A DNA stretch of 41,238 nt from Crocinitomicaceae bacterium (GTDB lineage: Bacteria > Bacteroidota > Bacteroidia > Flavobacteriales_D > Crocinitomicaceae). The stretch's first letter is position 1, and the number at the start of each line of letters is the position of its first letter. The position numbers and the translations under genes are program-made. The DNA is taken from assembly GCA_025210175.1 (NCBI GenBank), contig JAOASF010000063.1, positions 1-41,238 of the forward strand. The letters run 5' to 3'. Below, piece by piece: positions 525 to 14,460 of the stretch. The notes below the pieces were generated by a model. It did not search any database and was not told the DNA's origin. It saw only the letters and a list, made by a program, of their open reading frames with translations.

Positions 525-2540
525 CTACAGGGTTTCTGCTAACCAGGCAAAAAATTCTCTTTGCCACAAAATGCCGTTCTGCGGTTTCAAAACCCAATGT
601 CCCTCATCTGGAAAATACAGATAACGCGATTTTAGTCCCTTCAATTGTGCAGCCTGATAAGCTTGCATCCCTTCTGATTCAGGTACGCGAAAATCCTTTC
701 CTCCGTGAATAACCAAAATAGGCGTATCCCAGTTTTGAACATAACGATGCGGACTGTTTACCTCGTAAAGTTCTTTGTTGTCTGTATCCCAATACGGACC
801 ACCTATGTCCCAATTGGCGAAGAACAACTCTTCAGTGGTACCATACCAACTCTCTAGGTTAAACAAGCCACAATGCGAAATGAAACTCTTGAATCTACCT
901 TCGTGATTACCTGCTAAAAAATACACCGAATAACCACCATAGGAAGCCCCGACTGCTCCTATGCGATTGGGGTCCACATAAGATTCTTGCGATACTTGGT
1001 CTACAGCCGACAAGTAATCGCGGATAGGTTGTCCGCCCCAGTCCTTAGAAATAGCGTCGTTCCATTCCTGACCAAAGCCCGGCAATCCTCTTCTGTTGGG
1101 AGCTATCACCACATAACCTTGCGAGGCCATCAGCATCAAATTCCAGCGGTACGAAAAGAATTGACTGACCATGCTTTGCGGTCCTCCCTGACAATACAAC
1201 AAGGTCGGGTATTTTTGTCCCTCCTTGTAATTGGTCGGTAGGAGTACCCACGTCAACATTTCCTTTCCGTCGGTCGTTTTGATCCACTTTTCCTGAATGG
1301 TTGGCAAGTTTAACTTTGCAAAGATGTCCTCGTTGATTTTGGTCAACTGAGTCAATGTTTTTGTTTTCAAGTCATAATTCCACAAATCGGTTGGTGCAAT
1401 CATGCTTTGTAAGCCCAAAATAAGGCGTTCTTTACCTTGTGAAAAATGCACAACGTTCATTCGACCTGTTGTTATTTGACTCACCGCTCCATTCATATCG
1501 CAAGTAAACAACTGATTTACTCCTTTAAAAGGAGAGACAAACAGAAAGCCCTTGCCATCTCTAGCCCATTGAAAATCGTTGATTGTTAGATCCTTATTCA
1601 AGGAAATTGATTTTCTAGACTTCGTTTCTAGGTCCATGTATTGAATCACATTTTTGTCGGACTCAAATCCATTTCTCGCCATGTTCAACCAGGCGATCAT
1701 TTTTCCATCAGGGGACAAAATGGGAGAAGTGTCATAACCGTCTTGGGCTGGTGTGAGGTTGACAGTTTGCAAGGTTTCCACATCAAATAAATACAAGGCT
1801 GAATTGGTCGAAGTAGCAAAATCCTTTCCTACTTTTTTCTTCGCGTTGTAGATCAAACCCTTTCCATCATTCACCCACAAGAGAGCTTCGGTACCGCTAA
1901 AAGGTGGCACTACGGCGTCATAAACCTCATCCTTCATTAGGTCATTTCCATCGATATACTGCCCTGCCGAATTTTTGTATCCGATAAAGATATGCGTCGC
2001 ATTTTCGTCGGACCATTGATTCCAGTGACGGTACATCAAATCCGTTTCCATTCGAGCGGTTGATTTCGGCAAATCCGAATGAACCTCCTGAAGGGTTTTA
2101 GAAACCTTTACCGATTGCAAAGTGGCAATTCTTTTTTCATCTGGTGACAGTACGTAACCTTCAACATTGCCTTTGAACTGAGAAATCAGTCCCTTTTTTC
2201 CTGATTTTGGATCTATTTTCCAAAGTTGAACTCCTCCATCTCTTCCGGCCAAAAAGGAAATATTTCCATCCTTCATCCATTTGGCTTCAAATTCGTTTTC
2301 AGGAGTGTCGGTAACCTGCTTTACTGTATTTGAACTTAAATCGTAAATAAAAATATCGGTGTATCCTCTATTTTCATCAATGTTGATACGGGTCTGTGTA
2401 AAAAGAATTTCTTTTCCGTTGGGAGAAAGATCTCCGCCTCCCAGTCTTTTGATTTTCCAGAGTGTTTCTGCGGTCAAATTTTCCTGAGCAAATGCAGCGA
2501 TTGACAAGATGCTCAAAGAGAGTATAACTAATTTTTTCAT
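525..2540 (-). CDS. Secreted S9-family prolyl oligopeptidase-type serine peptidase
   Basis: This 671-aa protein has a cleavable signal peptide (MKKLVILSLSILSIAAFAQ). An N-terminal beta-propeller-like half follows, with repeated LSPDGK/LSPNGK motifs typical of WD40-like (PD40) blades, and then a C-terminal alpha/beta-hydrolase peptidase domain. The catalytic triad is visible: Ser533 in GASYGGYS, Asp616 in GGKDFRVPE and His648 in DEGHWVL. Order and spacing match the S9 family (prolyl oligopeptidase, DPP4/DPP5, acylaminoacyl peptidase). Length and the secreted location resemble the periplasmic dipeptidyl peptidases (DPP5 type) of Bacteroidota, which trim di- or oligopeptides during protein use. 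The exact specificity (S9A, B or C) is inferred. The gene follows the small membrane-protein gene on the same strand by 26 bp and may be co-transcribed with it. Confidence 0.92.
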   Translation of the reverse strand: MKKLVILSLSILSIAAFAQENLTAETLWKIKRLGGGDLSPNGKEILFTQTRINIDENRGYTDIFIYDLSSNTVKQVTDTPENEFEAKWMKDGNISFLAGRDGGVQLWKIDPKSGKKGLISQFKGNVEGYVLSPDEKRIATLQSVKVSKTLQEVHSDLPKSTARMETDLMYRHWNQWSDENATHIFIGYKNSAGQYIDGNDLMKDEVYDAVVPPFSGTEALLWVNDGKGLIYNAKKKVGKDFATSTNSALYLFDVETLQTVNLTPAQDGYDTSPILSPDGKMIAWLNMARNGFESDKNVIQYMDLETKSRKSISLNKDLTINDFQWARDGKGFLFVSPFKGVNQLFTCDMNGAVSQITTGRMNVVHFSQGKERLILGLQSMIAPTDLWNYDLKTKTLTQLTKINEDIFAKLNLPTIQEKWIKTTDGKEMLTWVLLPTNYKEGQKYPTLLYCQGGPQSMVSQFFSYRWNLMLMASQGYVVIAPNRRGLPGFGQEWNDAISKDWGGQPIRDYLSAVDQVSQESYVDPNRIGAVGASYGGYSVYFLAGNHEGRFKSFISHCGLFNLESWYGTTEELFFANWDIGGPYWDTDNKELYEVNSPHRYVQNWDTPILVIHGGKDFRVPESEGMQAYQAAQLKGLKSRYLYFPDEGHWVLKPQNGILWQREFFAWLAETL

Positions 2541-2884: not shown

Positions 2885-3565
2885 TTAGTCCTTGGTGACC
2901 AATTTGAAGCCTTTACCGTGGATGTTCATGATTTCTACCGTTTCGTCTTCTCTCAACAATTTTCTGATTTTCGCAATGTAAACGTCCATTGAGCGACCAT
3001 TGAAATAGTTGTCGTCTCCCCAAATGGCACGAAGCGTTGCCTGACGGTCCAGAATTTCATTCTTGTTTTTCACCAAGAGGTGTAGCAATTGATTTTCTTT
3101 CGTTGTAAGCTTGCGTTCACCCTCTTTGAGGTAAAGCATTCTAAAGGCAGGTTCAAATTTCAACTTACCAACCATGTATACTTCCTCTTCGGTTTCTTCT
3201 TCGCCAACTGTTCTTCGAGAAATGGCTGTAATGCGTGCCAAAAGCTCCTCCATGGAGAAAGGTTTGGTTAAATAATCGTCTGCCCCTAACGCAAAACCCT
3301 GAAGTTTATCCTCTTTCATGGACTTCGCGGTTAAAAACAGAATGGGCACTTTTTTATCTATTTCTCGAATCTCTTTTGCCAAGGTGAAACCATCCATTTC
3401 AGGCATCATTACATCGAATACACAAAAGTCGTACTTGGACTTATTGAATTCTTCAAAAGCCATTTTTCCATCGCGTACCAATTTAACGTCGTACCCCTTG
3501 TTTTGTAAAAAGTTCGAAAGAAGTTCTCCTAAATTTTGATCGTCTTCAGCCAATAAAAGTCTCAT
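2885..3565 (-). CDS. OmpR/PhoB-type DNA-binding response regulator
   Basis: A 226-aa two-component response regulator. The receiver domain (about residues 1-118) shows the acidic pair in AEDDQ (8-9), the phosphoacceptor Asp51 in VFDVMMPEMDG, the switch Thr in FLTAKS (79) and Lys101 in LTKPFS. The C-terminal winged-helix DNA-binding domain (about 130-226) ends in the typical NGRSMDVYIAKIRKLLRED and IHGKGFKLV segments of Trans_reg_C. It acts in the cytoplasm as a transcription regulator phosphorylated by the partner kinase, whose stop codon lies one base upstream of this start (3566), so the two are surely one operon. The regulon is unknown. The divergently transcribed outer-membrane barrel gene at 5336 shares the promoter region and is one possible target, but that is only inference. 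Confidence 0.95.
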   Translation of the reverse strand: MRLLLAEDDQNLGELLSNFLQNKGYDVKLVRDGKMAFEEFNKSKYDFCVFDVMMPEMDGFTLAKEIREIDKKVPILFLTAKSMKEDKLQGFALGADDYLTKPFSMEELLARITAISRRTVGEEETEEEVYMVGKLKFEPAFRMLYLKEGERKLTTKENQLLHLLVKNKNEILDRQATLRAIWGDDNYFNGRSMDVYIAKIRKLLREDETVEIMNIHGKGFKLVTKD

Positions 3566-10929: not shown

Positions 10930-11006
10930 TTTGTGCTCCAGAATGTGAATGAAAATGAGTGTGAGTGTGAGTAAAAGATACTTTTTCAAATTACGATTTT
11001 GGTGTA

Positions 11007-11070
11007 ACCCCGAAGGGGTGATAGCCAAAAAGAAATAGGGTTGAAGTATTTTATCAAACCCTGAAAGGGT
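11007..11070 (+). repeat. Left pair of REP-like palindromes (GAA loop) beside the Y1 transposase
   Basis: Two short hairpins of one design lie between the paaZ terminator and the 3' end of the transposase gene: ACCCC-GAA-GGGGT at 11007-11019 and ACCCT-GAA-AGGGT at 11058-11070. Both are preceded by A and followed by GA. The second ends 8 bp before the transposase stop codon. They are inverted with respect to the right pair at 11578-11640, which fits REP-like units or transposon ends recognised by a Y1 transposase. Confidence 0.7.
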
Positions 11071-11078
11071 GAAATAGG

Positions 11079-11531
11079 TCAATCGAAGAGGTATTTTTCG
11101 TTGTATTCTATTTCGTATGCTTTGAGGAACTCTAGGTATTCTTTTTGGAAAGTTTTTTTCGCGTGATGTTCTTCTTGATTTTCAATGTAACGATACAAGG
11201 CTCTCACGTGGTCTGTTGAGCACGAAAAGGCTCCGTAGCCTTCTTGCCATTGGAATTTACCTCGAACAAGTCTTCTTTCATTGATGTATTTCGAAGAGTT
11301 GTTTTTTATATCCCGGATGAGATCTGATAGACATACCGTTGGTTTTAGACCAACTAAGACGTGAATATGGTCTTCTATTCCTCCCATGATAATTGGTTTT
11401 TGTCCTTTTTCTCTGATTATACCTGAGATATACTTATAGAGTTCTTCGCGCCAAGATTTGTGAAGAAGTGGTTGTCTGTGTTTCACTCCGAAGATGAAGT
11501 GGACATAGATCTGTGTGTAGGTTCCAGCCAT
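11079..11531 (-). mobile_element. IS200/IS605-like Y1 transposase (RAYT-like)
   Basis: A 150-aa single-domain HUH transposase. It has the metal-binding HIH motif (His55, His57) in GIEDHIHVLVGL and a candidate nucleophile Tyr115 in YRYIENQEEHH, which is the expected layout for TnpA of the Y1 family. The NQEEHH signature, the WQEGYGAFSCS segment and the length match the small IS200/IS605-type transposases frequent in Bacteroidota. No tnpB or other cargo gene adjoins it. On each side lies a pair of short GC palindromes with a GAA/TTC loop, inverted left versus right. That arrangement recalls REP-associated tyrosine transposases (RAYTs), which are usually single-copy, domesticated and linked to REP hairpins. 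Whether this copy is mobile or domesticated cannot be told from one window. All catalytic residues appear intact. Confidence 0.88.
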
Positions 11532-11577
11532 GATAGTAGTTTTGTTTCTATATAAGTTACGCGTTTTTTAGAATGTC

Positions 11578-11640
11578 ACCCCTTCGGGGTTTTAATTTTA
11601 GGCTTTTTGGTTTAGTATGCGTATTAAACCCCTTCAGGGT
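11578..11640 (+). repeat. Right pair of REP-like palindromes (TTC loop) beside the Y1 transposase
   Basis: ACCCC-TTC-GGGGT lies at 11578-11590 and ACCCC-TTC-AGGGT (one mismatch) at 11628-11640. The 16 bases TCACCCCTTCGGGGTT at 11576-11591 are the exact reverse complement of AACCCCGAAGGGGTGA at 11006-11021 on the left side, so the transposase is bracketed by an inverted repeat pair. Confidence 0.7.
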
Positions 11641-11683
11641 TAGTGCATGACGGGGTATTGGGGGTTCTTATTATACTTGCAGC

Positions 11684-12373
11684 ATGCTAAAGACTTTTTT
11701 GAATTGGAGTGGTGGTAAGGATTCTTCGATGACCTTGTTTTATTTGTTGCAAAATACTGAGGTGGAGGTGGAGCAGCTATTTACCTCGATGAACAAGGAG
11801 CAACAGCGAATTTCCATGCATGGCGTTCGAAGAGATTTGTTGGAAAAACAAGCGGCTTCCATTGGCCTTTCTTTGCGGGTTATGGAACTTTCGGAAACGA
11901 CGGATATGGAAGGCTACCGAAACGAGATTTCGAAGCATGTCGACCATCTTGTTCAGGAGGGTTTTCAAGCAACTGCTTTCGGAGATATTTTCTTGGAGGA
12001 TTTGAAAAAATACCGCGAAGAACAATTGGCTCCGTCAGGTTTGAAGGTTCACTTTCCTTTGTGGAAGCGCGACACAACCGAGCTAATGCGAACTTTCATT
12101 GATTTGGGGTTCAAATCCATCGTTACTTGTGTGAATGAAAAGTTCTTGGATAAGAGTTTTGTTGGACGTGTACTGGACGATTCCTTTCTTGCTGATTTAC
12201 CTCCAAACGTTGATCCATGCGGTGAAAACGGAGAATACCACAGTTTTGCTTTTGACGGCCCTATTTTCAATAAACCTATCACTTTTGAATTAGGCGAAGT
12301 TGTTTATCGTAAATACGACCAAGGCGAGGATGCTGATTTGCATACTGGATTTTGGTTTCAGGATTTGATTTAG
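11684..12373 (+). CDS. Dph6-like (DUF71) ATP pyrophosphatase / diphthine-ammonia ligase family protein
   Basis: A 229-aa cytoplasmic protein of the N-type ATP pyrophosphatase superfamily. The PP-loop is at residues 9-14 (SGGKDS), and the family's C-terminal motif GENGEYHSFAFDGP is present at about residues 180-193. The whole length corresponds to the stand-alone DUF71 / MJ0570-related family. The eukaryotic and archaeal homologue Dph6 amidates diphthine on EF-2. Bacteria lack diphthamide, so the bacterial substrate is unknown and the name diphthine-ammonia ligase should be read as a family label. It lies just after the palindrome cluster and its 3' end runs into the structured element at 12392-12482. 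It is probably a single-gene unit. Confidence 0.85.
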   Translation: MLKTFLNWSGGKDSSMTLFYLLQNTEVEVEQLFTSMNKEQQRISMHGVRRDLLEKQAASIGLSLRVMELSETTDMEGYRNEISKHVDHLVQEGFQATAFGDIFLEDLKKYREEQLAPSGLKVHFPLWKRDTTELMRTFIDLGFKSIVTCVNEKFLDKSFVGRVLDDSFLADLPPNVDPCGENGEYHSFAFDGPIFNKPITFELGEVVYRKYDQGEDADLHTGFWFQDLI

Positions 12374-12391
12374 TTTTCAAGGCTCGAACCT

Positions 12392-12482
12392 CGCTTAGGG
12401 ATAGGAGCAACTATCCTCTCAGCTCAGCCGAGAGATAGTGTGGATAGCCCGACCTCTCTCGGCTCAGCCGAGGGGGTAAGCG
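12392..12482 (+). ncRNA. Structured multi-hairpin element, candidate Flavobacteria-type RNA motif
   Basis: Between the Dph6-like gene and the converging MBOAT gene lies a compact fold. An outer stem, CGCTTA (12392-12397) with TAAGCG (12477-12482), encloses the single-stranded text GGGATAG (12398-12404), a long hairpin at 12411-12438 (loop TCA, one bulged C and one mismatch), the text GGATAGCCCGACC (12442-12454) and a second hairpin at 12454-12476 (core CTCGGC-TCA-GCCGAG extended by G-U and C-G pairs). The GGGATAG ... GGATAGCCCG pairing of sequence blocks resembles, from memory, the conserved intergenic motif of Flavobacteria catalogued as Flavo-1. I could not run a covariance search. Strand is chosen from that resemblance. 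It could also act as a two-way terminator. Confidence 0.5.
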
Positions 12483-12489
12483 CCAAATC

Positions 12490-14460
12490 CTAAAACTGGA
12501 AATAAACGAAAGGTTTACTCACATCCGAAACAGCTTGATACATGAGCAAAAGGATGACGGATACCGAAAGTGCCTTTGCATAAAGTGGCATTTTTTCGAA
12601 ACGGAATTCCCAGCCGTCTTTGATTTTTTGGGGTAACCAATGGATGATATACCCCAAAATCATGATGATAAATACGGAATCGTAGGTTGATAGCACCTTC
12701 ACGAAAACATCCCAACTGAAATTAAACTCGTTCCAAATTTGATGCAACATCAGCATCGGTTGTCCATCGCCATCGAGTCGGAACCAGATACGTGTAAAGG
12801 TGATGAAATTGAAGGTGATAAAGATTTTCCAGAAGTGAACCAAAGGCCCCGTTTTCGCTTCGTATGGACTGACTTTTTTCCAATAATTGTAAATCACCAA
12901 AGCACAGCCGTTCATCGCTCCCCAAACCACAAAGTTTTCGCTTGCACCGTGCCACAATCCTCCCACAACCATCGTGATGATCAAGTTCAAATCGCGGTGT
13001 ATCAGCTTTTTGAAATTCTTGATGAAGAGGACTCCATAGATATACAGAATCATTAATCCTATGTACACAAAAATGAGTTCGTACCAACCGGTAATGAGCA
13101 GAAGAAAGAAAAAGATAATGAGTGTTGCAATGTAGGTTCCGATTCCTCCTGTTCGGTTTCCACCAAGCGGTATGTAGAGATAATCGCGCAACCAAGACCC
13201 CAGACTCTTGTGCCATCTTCTCCAGAAATCGGCAACGGAAATAGCCTTGTACGGTGAGTTGAAATTCTCCAACAACTCAAAGCCCATCAAGCGACTCAAA
13301 CCGATTGCAATATCGGTATACCCGGAGAAATCACCATAAATCTGAAGGGAATATCCCCACATGGCCAAAATACTCACGAAACCAGGATAAGCATCGGGCG
13401 CATCGGCGACTTTATCGATGAAATGAATGGCGATGTAATCGGCCAGGACCACTTTTTTGAGAAGACCTTTTACAATTTGTACAACGGCCCAAGAGAAATC
13501 CTTGTTGTTGAGCTTAAACTTCTTGTGAATTTGTGGGATGAAATCGCGTGCGCGAACAATCGGTCCAGCCACCAATTGTGGGAAGAAAGTGACGAAGAAA
13601 GTGTAGTCAAAAAAGTTGTTGACCGGCTTAATTTCTTCTCGGTAAATATCAACGATGTAGGAGATACTTTGGAAGGTGAAAAAAGAAACTCCAACGGGCA
13701 ACAAGATCTTTTCCGTAAAAGTTCCCTCCCCTGCAAAGCCATTGGCCCAACGTGCAAAAAGATTGTAAATCTCAAAGTCGGTGTGGAACATCTCGTTGAA
13801 CGATGAAGTGAAGAAATAGGCATACTTGAAATAGCCCAAAATCAACACATTAAATATCACCGTTATGGCGATAATCCACTTCTTGCTGATTTGTTTTGGC
13901 ACGCGGAAAATCCATTTCCCCATGAAGTAGTTAAAAACCAAACTGACGCCGAGAAGGACTACGAACAAACCGCTCGATTTGAAATACAAAAAGAGGGAAA
14001 TAGCGGTTAGAAATAAACTTCGGACGAGGTATTTTTTTTGGAAACGAGCAAAGACAAAAATGAGCACCAAGAATACCAGCCAAATATCGTAATAGGTCAA
14101 ACCAATGTACACCTCATCAAAAGCAAATTTGTAGATATAATACCCCAACATCAGGATATTGACCGGCGCTAGCGTGTAGAGTTTTTCTTTTTGCGAAATT
14201 TTGGTGGAAAGTAAATACTGAGCGTTGATCCCCAAGCCGAGTAGGAAAATAGCTGAATCGTAAAAGCGAAACACTGCCAACCCAATTAGGGTCAGAGCTC
14301 CGGCTATGATGATTTTCTGCTTACGAGGAAGATCCAACAAGGCATATACGACCATAACTGCCGCAAAGAAGTACCAGAAATTGAGCTGGGTAAAAATCAG
14401 CGGATGCTCCTTGTCAAAAAGGAAGTTAAAAACGGTCGTTAGTCTATTGATCCCCTCCAT
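12490..14460 (-). CDS. MBOAT-family O-acyltransferase (AlgI-like)
   Basis: A 656-aa polytopic inner-membrane protein of the membrane-bound O-acyltransferase family. The AlgI-like core shows VGVSFFTFQSISYIVD (about 256-271), DFWRRWHKSLGSWLRDYLYIPLGG (about 411-434, His417) and the catalytic-type His504 in VGGLWHGASENFVVWG. These enzymes pass an acyl group, usually acetyl, across the membrane to an extracellular partner. The protein is longer than the usual ~470-500 residues because about 150 extra residues with several helices precede the core. Its ATG overlaps the end of the preceding SGNH gene by 17 bp, indicating translational coupling. With two SGNH proteins upstream, the operon probably O-acetylates an exopolysaccharide, wall polymer or glycan; the polymer is unknown because no glycosyltransferases are in view. 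Confidence 0.92.
   Translation of the reverse strand: MEGINRLTTVFNFLFDKEHPLIFTQLNFWYFFAAVMVVYALLDLPRKQKIIIAGALTLIGLAVFRFYDSAIFLLGLGINAQYLLSTKISQKEKLYTLAPVNILMLGYYIYKFAFDEVYIGLTYYDIWLVFLVLIFVFARFQKKYLVRSLFLTAISLFLYFKSSGLFVVLLGVSLVFNYFMGKWIFRVPKQISKKWIIAITVIFNVLILGYFKYAYFFTSSFNEMFHTDFEIYNLFARWANGFAGEGTFTEKILLPVGVSFFTFQSISYIVDIYREEIKPVNNFFDYTFFVTFFPQLVAGPIVRARDFIPQIHKKFKLNNKDFSWAVVQIVKGLLKKVVLADYIAIHFIDKVADAPDAYPGFVSILAMWGYSLQIYGDFSGYTDIAIGLSRLMGFELLENFNSPYKAISVADFWRRWHKSLGSWLRDYLYIPLGGNRTGGIGTYIATLIIFFFLLLITGWYELIFVYIGLMILYIYGVLFIKNFKKLIHRDLNLIITMVVGGLWHGASENFVVWGAMNGCALVIYNYWKKVSPYEAKTGPLVHFWKIFITFNFITFTRIWFRLDGDGQPMLMLHQIWNEFNFSWDVFVKVLSTYDSVFIIMILGYIIHWLPQKIKDGWEFRFEKMPLYAKALSVSVILLLMYQAVSDVSKPFVYFQF

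Follow-up and report, generated by a model that had tools for sequence, protein, structure and literature searches.

An extended Flavo-1 element in a Crocinitomicaceae genome that may belong to a family of dispersed structured repeats

The window analysed here is the whole 41,238-nt stretch of contig JAOASF010000063.1 from a Crocinitomicaceae bacterium. Two genes in it converge, and the 116-nt gap between their 3' ends (12374-12489) is mostly taken up by one structured element, whose parts and neighbors are as follows.

11684-12373, + strand: upstream convergent gene, diphthamide synthase family (PF01902)
12387-12490, + strand: extent of the whole element in its match to R1, the three-way-junction model (48.9 bits, E 7.7e-12)
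12392-12397, + strand: P1 outer stem, 5' strand CGCTTA, covarying across copies
12398-12450, + strand: P2 rod, the Flavo-1 core (GGGATAGGAGC...GGATAGCCC), matched by RF01705 and R1
12404-12406 and 12442-12444, + strand: symmetric GGA/GGA internal loop of P2, with conserved G.A/A.G mismatches
12417-12433, + strand: P2 apical hairpin with an AGC-TCA-GCC tip; the GGCTSAGCC tip is common to the Flavo-1 copies of this genome
12454-12476, + strand: P3 second hairpin of 10 bp, with a TCA loop and the tip GGCTCAGCC, from the constrained fold; P3 is present in relatives
12477-12482, + strand: P1 outer stem, 3' strand TAAGCG, pairing with CGCTTA
12483-12487, + strand: conserved 3' border or tail CCAAA (74 copies)
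12490-14460, - strand: downstream convergent gene, MBOAT acyltransferase (PF03062)

An initial annotation, made from the letters of the window, had described an outer stem around two hairpins that share a TCA loop. The closing pair CGCTTA/TAAGCG is present at 12392-12397 and 12477-12482, GGGATAG lies at 12398-12404 and GGATAGCCCG at 12442-12451; both hairpins carry a GCTCAGC tip (at 12422 and 12462), but the first tip, AGCTCAGCC, contains an A.C mismatch. Both strands of 12392-12482 fold more stably than chance would allow (z -3.8 for the + strand and -5.0 for the - strand; equalled by 0 of 200 shuffles). The branched fold of the annotation, which is also that of the family, amounts to -39.5 kcal/mol by constrained folding and is not the minimum-energy fold, in which one tip palindrome pairs with the other (-42.9 kcal/mol); it is nevertheless preferred because compensatory changes in relatives support it. 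The U-tract expected after the stem of an intrinsic terminator is absent, and the window tail reads CCAAATCC. The borders of the element are YY on the 5' side and CCAAA on the 3' side, the tail being conserved at C.97, C.93, A.72, A.91 and A.84 over the 74 copies.

The proposed kinship with Flavo-1 (RF01705) is supported. In an Rfam search of 171 nt, RF01705 was by far the best of 4227 families (12388-12458, 29.0 bits, E 1.3e-4), but its gathering score is 42 bits, and at the gathering threshold the window returned no match; miRNA matches in the same search were dismissed as hairpin noise far below the cut-off. The window element has in common with Flavo-1 the sequence and pairing of the core rod (GAU..AG..GG.AUCC ... 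AGAU..AGCGGAwAGC), a distribution in Bacteroidota, an intergenic location, and several copies per genome. It differs in that the Flavo-1 model (76 positions) lacks P1, P3 and the CCAAA tail, and in that its rod has AA before AUCC, where Flavo-1 usually has GG. Three relatives that do pass the cut-off (64.9, 56.3 and 56.1 bits; L015, L051 and L025) share the full architecture of the window element and are linked to it through detection by R1. These comparisons, together with five other copies in the genome, support the view that the window element is a true Flavo-1 copy, albeit divergent, and that its form is extended.

When approximately 95 copies were read, a short form (CCTAGCCC-rod-GGGAAATAGCTYC), the one described by the Rfam model, could be told from a long form, in which a second hairpin comes after the rod, an outer stem (usually GCGTTA/TAACGC) encloses the two, and CCAAA follows the stem. 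The window element and L002, a second copy in the same genome, belong to the long form. When 20 long-form copies, the window's excluded, were aligned with MAFFT, RNAalifold returned exactly this architecture as a three-way junction, 23 of its 26 pairs having changed on both sides. The covariance model R1, built from this alignment and hence without the window, matches the window once, at 48.9 bits (E 7.7e-12) and with P1 and P3 covered, and genome-wide finds just L002 (60.1 bits) and the window element (E 6e-10). An alignment of 91 copies has 93.9% of its cells paired and both sides changed in 26 of 27 pairs, and its covariation score is.625, as compared with.195 for shuffled and at most.12 for slid alignments; P1 itself occurs as GCGTTA/TAACGC, GCGTGA/TCACGC, CGGTTA/GAACCG and CTGCTA/TAGCAG. 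Since the 91-copy alignment had been fitted to the model, an independent test was made on copies from named genomes, using a pattern that fixed the 5' half alone and reading the free 3' side. Of 70 copies with T in P1, 61 have AACGCC as the partner motif, and of 10 with G, 8 have CACGCC; the sole T copy counted under C (L168) carries AACGCC at its P1 too, and the upstream control gave AACGCC in 0 and CACGCC in 2 of 80. Given the compensatory double changes in 26 of 27 pairs, and since R1 covers the outer stem and second hairpin, the complete element is, as a predicted structure, a three-way junction of P1, the Flavo-1 rod P2, the hairpin P3 and the CCAAA tail. Purine mismatches of the rod are kept (G.A in 89 and A.G in 86 of the 91 copies), one A.G becoming G.A in seven copies, and among helix cells G-U outnumbers A-C (about 70 vs 26). 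A depletion of G-U was considered as proof of a DNA structure and set aside as suggestive only, at approximately 3% G-U and 1% A-C; the loci contain no tRNAs that could serve as a control for this count.

This genome harbors six copies, four in the short Rfam form and two junctions. A DNA similarity search of the genome with the element returned only the element itself; four further copies were found as Flavo-1 matches of 33-40 bits, and a fifth (L164) via its hairpin tip. The tip sequence YGGCTSAGCCR occurs nine times in the 3.25-Mb genome, six of these in the six Flavo-1 copies, at the P2 tip in the four short forms and at the P3 tip in the two long forms; the remaining three sites have no Flavo-1 around them. 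Every copy here has GGCTSAGCC at a tip of P2 or P3, and other palindromes are seen elsewhere. In four cases in other genomes (L168-L247), the P2/P3 loops hold other palindromes, GAGC..GTCGA occurring there at about 1 per kb vs 0.03 outside. It is as if Flavo-1 loops were landing sites for other repeats.

Flavo-1 is present in 53 of the 150 genomes from the same bacterial family, at 1 to 29 copies and with big swings within genera, and matches extend to named Flavobacteriaceae, Bacteroidales and Lentimicrobiaceae. No match to the family was found in phage and plasmid collections, and a scan of 2.9 million viral contigs gave 5 with a match to the 5' half of the element. Genes beside the copies are mostly unrelated to one another. 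The nearest neighbor of a copy comes from the same genome in 41 of 64 cases, where 9.8 are expected and 500 shuffles gave a maximum of 19. The convergent bioA/argD gap carries a copy in one genome alone (G098), several relatives having empty gaps of 12-36 nt; upstream of sufS, four of ten congeners carry a copy whose core is kept and whose loops are wholly different. Comparison of these two sites revealed no clean empty site or junction with a target duplication. Within the genus of the window, four relatives have the MBOAT gene with no R1 match beside it, and since the upstream gene of the window also has no match in them, their MBOAT site does not represent a clean empty site. In two different genera, one and the same ABC transporter gene (77% amino acid identity) has a long form close to its 3' end, at 34 nt for L002 and 33 nt for L103, a hint of either long retention or repeated insertion. 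Pairs of long forms in the same direction were observed 2.2 kb apart in L109 (G006 C16), 289 bp apart in L091 (G067 C4) and 449 bp apart in L327 (G181 C20), with nearly equal scores in the pairs of L109 and L091. In a congener of the window, one 4-kb contig (L070, G028) carries opposed long forms at 701-818 (- strand) and 3173-3284 (+ strand).

Relations to transcription were counted over three pooled sets of copies, with genes taken from simple ORF calls, so that single cases may be wrong. Between codirectional genes, 62 copies are sense and 54 antisense. Convergent gaps hold 61 of 206 copies (30%) vs 122 of 749 in the background (16%) and are thus favored about twofold, while divergent gaps hold 29 of 206 (14%) vs 173 of 749 (23%). 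The Bacteroidota -7 box TAnnTTTG shows no excess upstream on the sense side (11 vs 10), and T5 within 30 nt after the element shows none either (9 of 139 copies vs 14 on the other side). The sense/antisense balance and the missing promoter and T-run signatures agree with the transcriptome of F. psychrophilum, in which Flavo-1 matches lie indistinctly sense or antisense and many fall outside any transcript (PMC9723704). A signal of replication orientation in the first set of 155 copies (a positive GC-skew intercept corrected for gene direction, t 4.8) was withdrawn because it failed in a separate test set (64 copies, loci of at most 20 kb; -0.009, t -1.2).

The window also carries an IS200-type Y1 transposase gene (11079-11531, - strand), within 11006-11641, between inverted pairs of AACCCYGAARGGGTGA-like palindromes. 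These palindromes have exact matches nowhere else in the genome and therefore look like the Y1 element's own ends rather than dispersed REPs. Across genomes, Y1 genes are weakly associated with Flavo-1 (38 of 53 positive genomes vs 50 of 97; Fisher p 0.02), the 10 strongest Y1 transposase loci hold no R1 match, and some copy-rich genomes, such as G113, have no Y1 match. GTAG- or CGTC-type unpaired tags are absent from the element borders.

The alignments show that the copies are homologous and that their predicted fold is kept by compensatory change. The copies are also scattered over intergenic sites that are mostly unrelated, and they point either way with respect to genes; homologous elements of such complexity at unrelated sites argue for dispersal by copying. 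We therefore favor, at a probability of roughly 0.6, the reading that the Flavo-1 family is a small non-autonomous structured repeat of REP or MITE type and not a dedicated RNA gene. Such a repeat would persist through DNA-level copying inside genomes and would be tolerated mainly where gene 3' ends meet; the copying enzyme, possibly of the Y1/HUH type, may recognize the fold, probably as single-stranded DNA, and RNA hairpins arising from read-through would be of secondary importance. Against this reading, no transposase is tied to the family, the sites compared gave no clean empty site with a target duplication, and the family is absent from phage and plasmid collections. Among known systems, the REP and the GTAG- and CGTC-tagged palindromic repeats are short imperfect intergenic hairpins with an unpaired tail, and CGTC repeats likewise have no linked transposase (PMC3733652). 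The present element resembles them in its imperfect intergenic hairpins, its swings in copy number from genome to genome and its unpaired tail, whereas it forms a branched junction of about 80-190 nt where they form a hairpin of 20-40 nt, and it has neither tag. Another class of intergenic repeat, the ERIC-type or MITE-like, consists of imperfect palindromes of about 100 nt with terminal inverted repeats and no coding capacity, features that the element would share (P1 taking the place of the terminal repeats); these repeats are not known to have any sequence in common with Flavo-1, and the target duplication of MITE-like repeats was not seen for the Flavo-1 copies compared here. An integron attC site was considered and rejected on inspection, as the polarity of the GTTA/TAAC arms is wrong for attC.

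Rfam files Flavo-1 as Gene; sRNA, and the element could accordingly be a bona fide small RNA or an RNA element that acts in cis in transcripts, the junction being either a functional RNA or a module for stability or processing at transcript 3' ends. Flavo-1 has been listed among abundant small-RNA families without an assigned function (PMC9029176). Compensatory evolution is strong on one strand, the tandem G.A mismatches are nearly invariant, as is typical of RNA internal loops, and the excess of G-U over A-C points the same way; both of the latter are expected of any one-strand fold and suit RNA as well. The core is retained at the sufS site in four species while its loops turn over, which could reflect a cellular function, and the near-constant distance to the ABC transporter gene in two genera also fits an RNA. 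An RNA function is still conceivable, since one strand keeps the fold and cores are retained. The claim of the initial annotation that the element is an RNA is, however, unsupported: copies have no strand preference relative to genes and no promoter or terminator signature, some lie between divergent genes, presence differs within genera, and the published transcript data are indifferent to strand (PMC9723704). On balance, we consider an RNA element unlikely.

Less likely again is that Flavo-1 is a REP proper, a special case of the dispersed repeat, mobilized by RAYT/IS200-type Y1 transposases like the one that lies 0.9 kb away in the window. The imperfect hairpin with its unpaired conserved tail and the somewhat greater frequency of Y1 genes in positive genomes would fit; the best Y1 loci without Flavo-1, the copy-rich genomes without Y1 and the different palindromic ends of the window's own Y1 gene do not. 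Least probable in our judgment is a bidirectional barrier at gene 3' ends, whether terminator, insulator or protein-binding DNA site of BIME-like kind, retained for separating convergent transcription units. The twofold enrichment in convergent gaps, the depletion in divergent gaps and the better-than-shuffled folding of both strands would suit a barrier, but no T-run follows the element in either direction, about 70% of copies lie outside convergent gaps, the element is missing from most relatives at the matching gene pair, and avoidance of promoters would by itself produce such a distribution.

For the dispersed repeat, a further-reaching proposal, tentative and in our view rather doubtful, is that Flavo-1 has been misfiled as RNA and comprises branched single-stranded-DNA repeats propagated by a trans-acting enzyme, with hairpin tips that are swappable and specific to each genome. 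If true, a common class of Bacteroidota repeats would have gone unrecognized as mobile DNA until now. The larger, strongly covarying three-way junction predicted in many members would provide a better model of the family with clear element borders. Indifference to transcription and homogenization within genomes may shift the question from the role of an RNA to what copies the DNA.
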